Shown here: positions 20,126 to 59,321 of the stretch, piece by piece
Layout of the letters: the number at the start of each line of letters is the position of its first letter
Position numbering within the stretch: the first letter of the stretch is position 1
Assembly: GCF_001889405.1 (NCBI RefSeq)
Contig: NZ_CP017921.1
Location: 1,812,057 to 1,876,056 of the forward strand
From: Methanohalophilus halophilus
GTDB taxonomy: Archaea > Halobacteriota > Methanosarcinia > Methanosarcinales > Methanosarcinaceae
Length of the DNA stretch: 64,000 nucleotides
Reading direction: 5' to 3'
The notes under the pieces: model-generated
What the model saw: the letters and a program-made list of their open reading frames with translations, nothing else
Databases searched by the model: none
Told to the model about the DNA's origin: nothing
Position numbers and translations under genes: made by a program

Positions 20126-20200
20126 TAGCGGGGGATGGATTCGAACCATCGGTCTACGGGTTATGAGCCCGTCGGGATCTCCTGGCTACCCCACCCCGCT
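20126..20200 (-). tRNA. Initiator tRNA-Met (CAU), copy 1
   Basis: 75 nt. The acceptor stem AGCGGGG pairs with CCCCGCT, leaving A73, so position 1:72 is A:U, the archaeal/eukaryotic initiator feature. The anticodon stem-loop is ACGGGCTCATAACCCGT: anticodon CAT flanked by three G:C pairs, also diagnostic of the initiator. The T-arm contains GGTTCGAATCC. CCA is not encoded. It is identical to the second copy 138 bases away. Confidence 0.93.
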
Positions 20201-20263: not shown

Positions 20264-20338
20264 TAGCGGGGGATGGATTCGAACCATCGGTCTACGGGTT
20301 ATGAGCCCGTCGGGATCTCCTGGCTACCCCACCCCGCT
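20264..20338 (-). tRNA. Initiator tRNA-Met (CAU), copy 2
   Basis: Identical 75-nt copy of the neighbouring gene, in the same orientation and upstream of it in transcription. AATATAAG lies about ten bases upstream of its 5' end (plus-strand 20347-20356), closer than usual for a TATA box, so promoter assignment is uncertain. Both copies have intact stems. Confidence 0.92.
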
Positions 20339-55363: not shown

Positions 55364-56047
55364 ATGAAAATTGAAGAAATAAACCAGATGGGAAAAGAAT
55401 TGAAAGATCTGTTAAAACTCAAAAATCCACCGGTAGCTGTTTCCCTTGTGCCAGACACTCATGAAGTACCTGAAGGTATCAATAAAATTGAAGAAAAAAT
55501 GAGACACTGCCAGATGGTGGACAAAGTTCGCAAAGAGGGAAGCGAATTCTATGCCCTGGCTGATGACCAGCAATGCAAAGGTGGTGCAGCTGTTATGGGA
55601 CTGCAGGAAATGGCACCCAAACTTGCCAACGGGGATGTCTATTACAACCTGAACCGTTACAAAACAATCAACTCCGCAAGACGTACTATGCAACAGGTTC
55701 CCAGACTCAAAGCAGGATCTACAAAAGCAGTACTATATGGCCCTCTGGAAAAGGTGAGTTTCATCCCGGACGTGGTACTTGTTATCGATACACCTAAAAA
55801 GGCAATGCAACTCTCACAGGCCCTTTTGCATCGCTTTGGAGGACGGGTTAATGCAAGCTTCGCAGGAATCCAGAGCCTATGTGCTGACGGGGTTGTCCAG
55901 CCTTATAAGGATGGACACATAAGCGCATCCTTGGGTTGTGGAGGAAGTCGAAAGTATGCCAATGTTGCAGAAGATGAAATGATAATCGGTATCCCTGTGG
56001 AAAGGCTGCATGATATGATAGAAGCAGCTCATGAGATGTTTGGCTGA
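55364..56047 (+). CDS. DUF169-family protein
   Basis: 227 residues matching DUF169 (COG2043): LLKLKNPPVAVSLVPDTHEVP at the N terminus, MRHCQMVDKVRKEGSEFYAL, DDQQCKGGAAVMGL, YGPLEKVSFIPDVVLVIDTPKKAM, AGIQSLCADGVVQPYKDG, ISLGCGGSRKYA-like ending. Conserved cysteines (HCQ, QCKGG, LCAD, GCGGSR) suggest a metal or cluster site. The family is common in methanogens and other anaerobes and its function is unknown. Confidence 0.85.
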   Translation: MKIEEINQMGKELKDLLKLKNPPVAVSLVPDTHEVPEGINKIEEKMRHCQMVDKVRKEGSEFYALADDQQCKGGAAVMGLQEMAPKLANGDVYYNLNRYKTINSARRTMQQVPRLKAGSTKAVLYGPLEKVSFIPDVVLVIDTPKKAMQLSQALLHRFGGRVNASFAGIQSLCADGVVQPYKDGHISASLGCGGSRKYANVAEDEMIIGIPVERLHDMIEAAHEMFG

Positions 56048-56184: not shown

Positions 56185-56195
56185 CTATAAATATA
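56185..56195 (+). promoter_or_regulatory. TATA box of the secreted/ArsR module
   Basis: CTATAAATATA lies 77 bases before the ATG of the secreted-protein gene. Expected transcription start is around 56215-56220, inside the dyad at 56213-56236. Confidence 0.45.
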
Positions 56196-56212
56196 CGCAA
56201 GCACACATCTAT

Positions 56213-56236
56213 ATGTGTAACAAATAGATTACACAT
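56213..56236. promoter_or_regulatory. Dyad operator over the start site of the secreted/ArsR module
   Basis: ATGTGTAA (56213-56220) and TTACACAT (56229-56236) are exact reverse complements separated by eight bases. Position just after the TATA box, covering the likely start of transcription, is that of an ArsR-family repressor site. The downstream ArsR-like regulator is the natural candidate to bind it (inference). Confidence 0.5.
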
Positions 56237-56261
56237 GTATGCAACATAAAAGGTGATGGAA

Positions 56262-56738
56262 ATGGAAAACAAAACAATTGTAGTACTCGCAGGCACCATT
56301 CTTATCGGCATAATGCTGATAGGGACCGTTTCAGCTCACTGGGCTAGTGGCGGATATGGGATGACCGACTCCCAAAACAGTGGTTATGTAGATGGAGGTG
56401 GAGCAGGTTATTACTGCAACTATGGCTATGGACAGGGATATAATGCCAACGGGGTTTATTCAGCTGAAGATGCAACATCAGTGATTAACGAAGATGAAGC
56501 AGTCTCACTTTTTGAAGAAACTACAGGTATCGATGTAAACGATGAAAACGTCTATCAGATGGGACGCTGGTGGGTAATCAACTACATTGATGAAAACACT
56601 ATTAAACAGGGACGCGTAGATTCAATAACAGAAAATGTAATCGAGGATTTTACGACCTATGTACCACAGGAATCCTATGAATACCAGAACAACTACAGGT
56701 ACCAGAGGGGAGCCGGTGGTTGCATGGGTTACCGTTAA
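56262..56738 (+). CDS. Secreted Gly/Tyr-rich protein of unknown function
   Basis: 158 residues. A signal peptide (TIVVLAGTILIGIMLIGTVSA) is followed by a Gly/Tyr/Asn-rich stretch (GGYGMTDSQNSGYVDGGGAG, with YCNYGYGQGYNANG), then a compact domain (VINEDEAVSLFEETTGIDV, GRWWVINYIDENTIKQGRVD) with a distant PepSY flavour, and a Tyr/Arg/Gly-rich tail ending GGCMGYR. It would sit outside the cell membrane. Metal or surface binding is possible but unproven. AGGTGAT precedes the ATG at 56262. Neighbours are a small membrane protein and an ArsR-like regulator. Confidence 0.7.
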   Translation: MENKTIVVLAGTILIGIMLIGTVSAHWASGGYGMTDSQNSGYVDGGGAGYYCNYGYGQGYNANGVYSAEDATSVINEDEAVSLFEETTGIDVNDENVYQMGRWWVINYIDENTIKQGRVDSITENVIEDFTTYVPQESYEYQNNYRYQRGAGGCMGYR

Positions 56739-56777
56739 TCCTCCCTTTTCTTCTTTATATAGGGGTGACACAATAAC

Positions 56778-57014
56778 ATGATGTATGGTAATATGATGTA
56801 TGGCACAGGTTTTTCCGTATGGGGAATGATACTAAATTTACTTCTTATCCTGCTGGTAGTTGGTGCTGTTGTCGTTCTTTTAACGCGCAGTGGTGCCATA
56901 AATAGTGAAAGCCAGAAAACAGCAGACTTAGAACGCTTGAACCGGCTGGAAAATGAAGTAAGGGATACAAAAAAAATGGTCGAAGAAATCAAGGATAAAC
57001 TTGACGAAATATAA
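56778..57014 (+). CDS. Small membrane protein with coiled-coil tail
   Basis: 78 residues. N-terminal MMYGNMMYGTGFS (Met/Tyr-rich), one membrane helix (WGMILNLLLILLVVGAVVVLL), then a long charged coiled coil (LERLNRLENEVRDTKKMVEE). It resembles SHOCT/PspB-like small proteins of envelope and metal-response operons. Met-rich N termini can bind copper or similar metals, but that is speculation. GGGGTGAC lies upstream, and the gene is the middle of the three-gene module. Confidence 0.65.
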   Translation: MMYGNMMYGTGFSVWGMILNLLLILLVVGAVVVLLTRSGAINSESQKTADLERLNRLENEVRDTKKMVEEIKDKLDEI

Positions 57015-57048
57015 ATTGGTTTAACCGTTACTATAAAGGGTACAACCC

Positions 57049-57366
57049 ATGCAAAAAAAACTCCAGGGGATTGTCAGCCTTGGCGAAGCTCTATCACATC
57101 CTCTGCGACTGAAACTCATATGTATGCTTGCAGACAGGGAATGGTATGTATATGAGCTTGCCAAAGAACTCGATGTTTCCAGACAGGTACTGTATCTTCA
57201 CCTGAAACGTCTTGAAAAAGCCGATATCGTTGAAGGTGATCTTCGACTGGAAGAAGATGATATGCGTGCCAAGAAATTCTTTAAGTTAAAAGAATTTGAT
57301 ATAAAGTTGGACGTTGAGGACCTTAAAAATATCTTTGAGACTGAAACAATCCCAAAAAAGAATTGA
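57049..57366 (+). CDS. ArsR-family winged-helix regulator
   Basis: 105 residues. HTH_5 features: EALSHPLRLKLICMLADREW, YELAKELDVSRQVLYLHLKRLEKADIV, wing LRLEEDDMRAKKFFKL. There are few cysteines, so metal sensing of the ArsR CXC type is not evident; another ligand or a membrane-signal route is possible. It follows the secreted and membrane genes and could repress its own operon through the dyad at 56213. Its stop codon is three bases from the end of pncB on the other strand. Confidence 0.85.
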   Translation: MQKKLQGIVSLGEALSHPLRLKLICMLADREWYVYELAKELDVSRQVLYLHLKRLEKADIVEGDLRLEEDDMRAKKFFKLKEFDIKLDVEDLKNIFETETIPKKN

Positions 57367-58694: not shown

Positions 58695-59321
58695 ATGGAA
58701 AAGGAAGAGGAGGGACTGGAGGGTGAAGGTTTTGATGAATTACTTCGCTATACTTTTCCGGGTTATATTTTAGGTTTGATTGCCGGTATATTCCTTGATA
58801 TTCAGGGATACCAGACCAATCCCTTTGGCCAGTGGATTGTGAGGACTCTTGCAGGCGAGGGAGAATCAATACTTGAAGGATTGTACTCCATCAGGCAACA
58901 TCTGGAAGGTGCAGCTGGATCAATGGCCCAGGCATACGGATGGGGTAAATTTTTTGGAATAACAATCCCCTGGATAATAGATGCCGCAAGCCGAATGGCA
59001 GGAGTTGATGTATATGGCATACAGGGCTTCTATATTCCTTACTTTTATGCTCTTAGTGACCAGATCGGTGCCAATATTTCCGGACTTGTGTATCTCAACC
59101 GAATCGAAGGTTCATGGTCTGCAGGAATATCGCGATACATACATCATCCTGTGATGCTTACCAGTATTGCTGTAATCCTGCTGGTACCATTGGGACTGCT
59201 AGCAGCGCGGGTCCTCGGATTCAGCCCGACCACACAGACTTTCACCGCCTTTGAAACCATAGTAGCAAATCTCTGCTGGCTACCTCCTGTTGTCGGCTGG
59301 ATGGTTCAAAGAGGTAAGTAA
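58695..59321 (+). CDS. Hypothetical integral membrane protein
   Basis: 208 residues I do not recognise. An acidic N terminus ([20 protein letters not shown]) leads into three or four hydrophobic segments ([80 protein letters not shown]). A loop [20 protein letters not shown] and [13 protein letters not shown] may be exposed. No transporter or enzyme motif seen. It may be methanogen-specific. It lies between divergent pncB and the U32 gene. Confidence 0.65.

Follow-up and report, generated by a model that had tools for sequence, protein, structure and literature searches.

To our knowledge, little has been established about how archaea perceive the condition of their envelope. A locus of Methanohalophilus halophilus raises this question in a compact form: it contains three genes, here termed sec, mem and reg, that respectively code for a secreted protein, a small membrane protein and a winged-helix regulator of the ArsR fold (Table 1). 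A preliminary description of the 64,000-nucleotide stretch in which they lie (hereafter the window) had presented the trio as one unit with its own operator, and had likened it to a small envelope-stress or metal-response circuit. At issue is whether reg itself perceives a cue or is informed by the two envelope proteins encoded alongside it. The best overall reading, to which we give about even credence, is that the trio forms a dedicated circuit, subject to autorepression, through which sec and mem would relay an envelope signal to a repressor that has no sensor of its own. Its parts, an ArsR fold and a PepSY-like domain, are ordinary, and their combination is less so.

Table 1. Features of the sec-mem-reg operon, numbered from the first base of the window
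Feature	Position	Strand	Description
TATA box	56186..56195	+	TATAAATATA; from sequence; operon promoter
Operator	56213..56236	.	Inverted repeat ATGTGTAA-N8-TTACACAT; exact, predicted; over expected transcription start
sec ribosome-binding site	56251..56257	+	AGGTGAT; from sequence
sec	56262..56738	+	Secreted, 158 aa; signal peptide, Gly/Tyr-rich stretch, RG/GY-rich tail
sec PepSY-like domain	about residues 75-130		Family-level PF03413 matches
mem	56778..57014	+	Small membrane protein, 78 aa; Met/Tyr-rich N-terminal tip, one span, coiled coil
reg	57049..57366	+	ArsR-fold winged-helix regulator, 105 aa; no conserved Cys

Conservation and composition of the operon

In the window the three genes are co-directional and are separated by only 39 (sec-mem) and 34 (mem-reg) nucleotides. 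Relatives of reg with at least 60% identity, two of them fragments, were recovered at 85 places among 199 genomes sampled from the class, and all 85 regions were examined. At 82 of these, distributed over 75 genomes, sec and mem lie upstream of reg on the same strand in the order sec-mem-reg. The three remaining places are a reg at the beginning of a contig, next to part of a mem gene (L144), and two truncated copies of reg (L179 and L181). Relatives with unlinked genes were thus explicitly sought, and the linkage of the trio is upheld. A profile of sec was run against 294 genomes drawn from the whole phylum and matched 39, every one of which belongs to f1 or f2, two families in the order of the window. 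The operon has been duplicated or lost in places. Searches of the open-licence literature on ArsR, PepSY, operators and coiled coils in methanogens and archaea, as well as on SdpR, recovered no description of the operon, which is strongly conserved and, in the literature searched, undescribed. A scan of contigs with a single protein yielded three Methanohalophilus relatives and two clostridial ArsR-like genes; one of the latter (L095) was rejected as a relative, being a 311-residue regulator beside carbohydrate-type genes and hence part of a different system.

The named relatives whose reg is 96-97% identical to that of the window are Methanohalophilus species. Three loci (L103, L104 and L110) from two genomes that carry the code of the window's genus (G055, which has two copies, and G119) have a reg and an operator that group with those of another genus, g4. 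Such copies are present in two of the eight genus members, and suggest either replacement by transfer or a genus drawn too widely.

The composition of the trio given in the preliminary description, a secreted Gly/Tyr-rich protein, a small Met-rich membrane protein and an ArsR-like regulator, agrees with the features of the reading frames and with the Pfam searches. We add to it a PepSY-like domain, which the sec family appears to contain: among the 43 of 82 sec proteins that were aligned, 29 match the PepSY model PF03413 at E-values no higher than 0.5, the lowest being 6.1e-5; the window sec itself has no Pfam match. A comparison with the YpmB structure (PDB: 2gu3) gave a weak match (E = 0.59). 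The domain is surrounded by Gly/Tyr-rich flanks peculiar to the sec family, and the single cysteine of sec (Cys 52) is kept in at least 90% of the 43 aligned members. Structure prediction added little: an AlphaFold model of sec built with four sequences reached a mean pLDDT of 33.6 and is unusable, that of reg (55.7) is too poor to use, and a Foldseek search with this low-confidence reg model returned no matches.

The mem protein, for which no Pfam family passes its cut-off, begins with an uncharged tip (MMYGNMMYG), followed by its single hydrophobic, membrane-spanning stretch and then by a charged coiled coil ending in KLDEI, which is predicted to be cytosolic by the positive-inside rule. Across the 82 operons this coil is near-invariant (conservation of E58 1.00, K65 0.99, V68 0.98, I71 0.99, K74 0.99, L75 0.99 and I78 0.99), and its residues vary less than do most of those in the tip and in the span. 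In 23 of the 82 operons there is a second mem gene in tandem. Since it is kept in four of the six operons of the window's Methanohalophilus lineage, being absent from the window and one other, the window operon represents a shortened form.

The constant neighbors of the 82 operons give no hint of the signal. The commonest codes for a membrane protein of about 208-250 residues that has no annotation, and is present near 24 of the 82 operons (L136, L155, L168 and others), mostly upstream and in some cases downstream, as is the window copy (58695-59321); no Pfam family passes its cut-off for this protein. A DUF169 protein is encoded directly upstream of the window operon on the same strand (55364-56047), and is found at this position at six Methanohalophilus loci only; it is outside the conserved unit. 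Elsewhere in the window two minus-strand tRNA genes (20126-20200 and 20264-20338), 63 bases apart and with equal Rfam scores, are possibly a tandem duplicate.

A predicted operator and its targets

The preliminary description had noted an exact 8-8-8 dyad over the expected start site and had proposed that relatives be searched for the trio together with this dyad. The palindrome alone is no better than chance, because the window has two exact 8-N8-8 dyads. That it is nonetheless real as a site follows from the homologous operons, in 82 of 82 of which the arms lie upstream of sec at the same spacing. When up to three mismatches are allowed, the dyad sequence occurs once in the window, against an average of 0.43 in shuffled versions. 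Two of the 82 promoters (L107 and L115), at which the assigned start codon is wrong, were omitted from the shuffle, TATA and bit-content analyses, and their operators were found afterwards. In all 80 usable promoters the best site has a spacer of 8 and agrees with one or other of two consensus arm pairs in at least 13 of 16 positions; these consensus arms derive from the very loci tested. Among 1600 shuffled promoters nine reach 13/16 and none 14, and elsewhere in the 619,058 bases of the operon regions four sites reach 13/16 and again none 14. A test less dependent on these loci used only the arms from Methanohalophilus, which found sites of at least 13/16 in 25 of the 74 other promoters, compared with 5 of 1480 block shuffles. 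With sequences weighted by genus, the information content is 1.0-2.0 bits in the arm columns and under 0.8 bit in most of the flanking ones.

The spacing between the TATA box and the start site is well established for archaeal promoters. Given this spacing, and that the best TATA-like match in the 80 relatives most often lies some 30 bases before the dyad center, the dyad lies over the start site, the position expected of a repressor, and the earlier placement holds. Taken together, the position and conservation of the predicted operator support autoregulation well, and we consider it very probable that the operon is autoregulated through it.

A possible trace of the contact between reg and its operator is seen in the recognition helix. 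Residue 49 of reg is Tyr in 37 of 40 cases in which base 8 of the arm is A, and Asn, Gln or Asp in 51 of 52 cases in which it is G. Such a pattern is what would be expected of a regulator and its own operator; it is suggestive only, because the tree shows just one or two independent switches, with which the pairing cannot reach significance. For the same reason we dropped the covariation as decisive proof of the pairing.

The same arms recur in a second architecture. In a more distant family (f3), with reg proteins 37-43% identical, the gene order is sec-reg-mem at all ten loci examined (L182-L190 and L195, a part of the f3 matches found). The sec protein of this family is longer and Met-rich, its mem is shorter, and the arms lie upstream of sec with a spacer of 7, scoring 14-16/16 at 10/10 loci. 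Further distant reg genes (L191-L194) have best operator-like sites scoring 12-15, and three of them (L191, L193 and L194) have no sec nearby.

To what extent might reg act elsewhere? In its own genome (2.02 Mb) the exact site occurs once, with one further site at two mismatches and 16 at three, versus 11 in the control. The site with two mismatches, which precedes a flavoprotein-like gene, was dropped as a second target since it is absent from the seven other genomes of the genus. A degenerate pattern run against 90 genomes of the family recovered 71 sites in 62 genomes, 56 of them within 2.2 kb of reg. A further five stand in front of sec or of a fragment of it: a whole operon (G207), two operons cut by contig ends (G114 and G186), a second sec and mem copy without reg (G057) and a fragment (G079). 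This distribution suggests that reg is dedicated mainly to its own operon. Ten of the 71 sites lie elsewhere, five of them before a gene pair coding for a membrane protein and an XRE regulator (L226-L229 and L239). The palindrome at this pair, ATATGTAAAG...TTACATAT, resembles that of sec-mem-reg but is distinct from it and is probably the operator of the XRE pair itself, and we judged these Methanosarcina-type sites more likely to belong to the pair than to be extra targets of reg. The loss of reg is a mixed natural experiment, because in G065, where sec stands with neither reg nor mem, an operator-like relic of 14/16 is retained; the sec relics of G061 and G003 have no site above 12/16.

Candidate signals and a proposed route to the regulator

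The regulator exceeds the Pfam cut-offs for HTH_20 (43.2 bits versus 27) and HTH_5/ArsR (41.8 versus 22). Among 83 relatives it has no conserved cysteine column and no Cys/His pair that stands out: 69 of the 83 have Tyr in place of the sole cysteine of the window reg (residue 25), and the only conserved histidines are His 17, in an 'SHP' turn, and His 51, within the recognition helix. For these reasons a classical metal or thiol site in reg is unlikely.

This bears directly on the metal response of the preliminary description, namely that reg might be a classical ArsR/SmtB metalloregulator (for Cu, Zn, As or the like) controlling metal-binding envelope proteins. The ArsR fold, the Met/Tyr-rich tips of sec and mem, which could bind soft metals, and an FTR1 iron permease near some operons all fit such a proposal. 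Yet, beyond the residues just described, reg scores 41.8 bits against the NCBIfam model HTH_metalloreg (NF033788), under its cut-off of 55, and no metal-transport gene is a constant neighbor of the 82 operons. We accordingly do not retain the metal response, and regard this explanation as quite improbable.

We consider a redox or thiol-stress circuit to be improbable too, if by a shade less so. In such a circuit the PepSY-like sec would handle disulfides together with a thioredoxin/glutaredoxin-like protein and reg would be told of the redox state. It draws on family f3, in which a two-domain protein of that type is encoded after mem at nine of the ten loci, the tenth ending at the contig end, hinting at a redox link. 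The conserved Cys 52 of sec, and a gene beside one f3 locus (L195) that we take from its sequence to be thioredoxin-reductase-like, point in the same direction. Against this, thioredoxin-like genes are not a recurrent neighbor of the 82 main operons, and the lack of a conserved cysteine in reg counts here as well.

A simple autorepressor deserves more weight, even if we think it unlikely: reg itself would sense a small molecule, or else a physical stimulus such as heat or salt, with sec and mem as mere effectors. Phr, the archaeal heat-shock regulator, offers a model for this, and the closest solved relatives of reg include 2p4w (E = 1.7e-5, over residues 13-98 of reg), which we take to be an archaeal-type relative of Phr, and BigR (PDB: 3pqj; E = 3.2e-6). 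The operator data fit such an autorepressor too. What it leaves unexplained is why the mem coil should be among the most conserved parts of the system, and why the envelope pair should be constant in two architectures.

The preferred mechanism is a proposed relay from the envelope. In it reg, presumably as an ArsR-type dimer, would bind the 24-base bipartite operator over the start site and repress its own operon. Because reg has no recognizable sensor residues, the signal would have to come to it from a partner, most likely mem with its conserved cytosolic coil; a conserved cytosolic surface adjoining a sensorless repressor suggests contact between the two. Outside the membrane, the PepSY-like sec and the Met/Tyr-rich tip of mem would meet the signal, be it a ligand or some part of the envelope that is misfolded or modified. 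Thereupon mem would hold reg at the membrane, turning the operon on and yielding more sec and mem. This membrane capture is a conjecture that goes well beyond the autorepression, and only tentatively do we assign to mem the role of the partner that relieves repression. The conserved coil could simply drive oligomerization of mem. That the operon senses envelope stress is a reasonable guess.

The proposal lends itself to experiment: the predicted operator is open to a single gel shift, and the operon occurs in many of the sampled relatives. Since reg seems to regulate mainly itself, the whole circuit would fit on one plasmid in a tractable Methanosarcina. The operon would thereby allow signal relay across the membrane to an ArsR-fold repressor to be tested directly in an archaeon.

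Comparison with known systems

Reg shares its winged-helix fold with the ArsR/SmtB metalloregulators (PF01022, NF033788), as its HTH_5 and HTH_20 scores attest, and differs from them in its low NF033788 score and its lack of a conserved cysteine. It resembles Phr as an archaeal ArsR-type regulator whose residues 13-98 match 2p4w; however, 2p4w has 202 residues with an extra C-terminal part, compared with the 105 of reg, and reg scores 33.3 bits against the NCBIfam model Phr_regulator, for which the cut-off is 320. Secreted PepSY proteins (PF03413) are comparable to the sec family to the extent of its 29 matching members, and differ in lacking its Gly/Tyr-rich flanks. In a related methanogen, Methanosarcina mazei, the sRNA162 target MM2440-MM2441 has an ArsR-family gene as the second cistron after a hypothetical gene, an arrangement like that of reg (PMC3510493). 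It differs in being bicistronic with overlapping reading frames, and the portion of that paper used here reports no secreted partner (PMC3510493); membership of its regulator in the reg family is conjectural.

A parallel for the proposed mechanism comes from Bacillus subtilis, in which the autorepressor SdpR is reported to be captured at the membrane by SdpI (PMC1626106). There too a secreted protein, a membrane protein and an autorepressor belong to one signaling loop, although sdpABC and sdpRI are separate operons and sec-mem-reg is one; furthermore, SdpI is polytopic (PMC1626106) whereas mem has one span, and SdpC is a 5-kDa toxin whereas sec is PepSY-like. Reg scores 23.5 bits against the SdpR subfamily model NF033789, under the cut-off of 100. 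The order and topology of the three products, and the duplication or loss of the operon in places, would also allow a literal Sdp-like killing system with sec as toxin or signal, mem as immunity protein and reg as autorepressor. We hold this to be very improbable, given that sec is long, conserved and PepSY-like, that its matches to bacteriocin models are weak and few, and that mem is tiny and single-spanning next to the polytopic SdpI (PMC1626106). More tentatively than the role of mem itself, we propose that sec-mem-reg may be an order-wide archaeal three-protein transmembrane device, in which the cytosolic coil of a single-span protein would capture a sensorless ArsR-fold repressor once a secreted PepSY-like protein detects an envelope signal, as an independently assembled counterpart of the Sdp relay. 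On the best reading, sec-mem-reg would work like SdpC-SdpI-SdpR and be unrelated to it.
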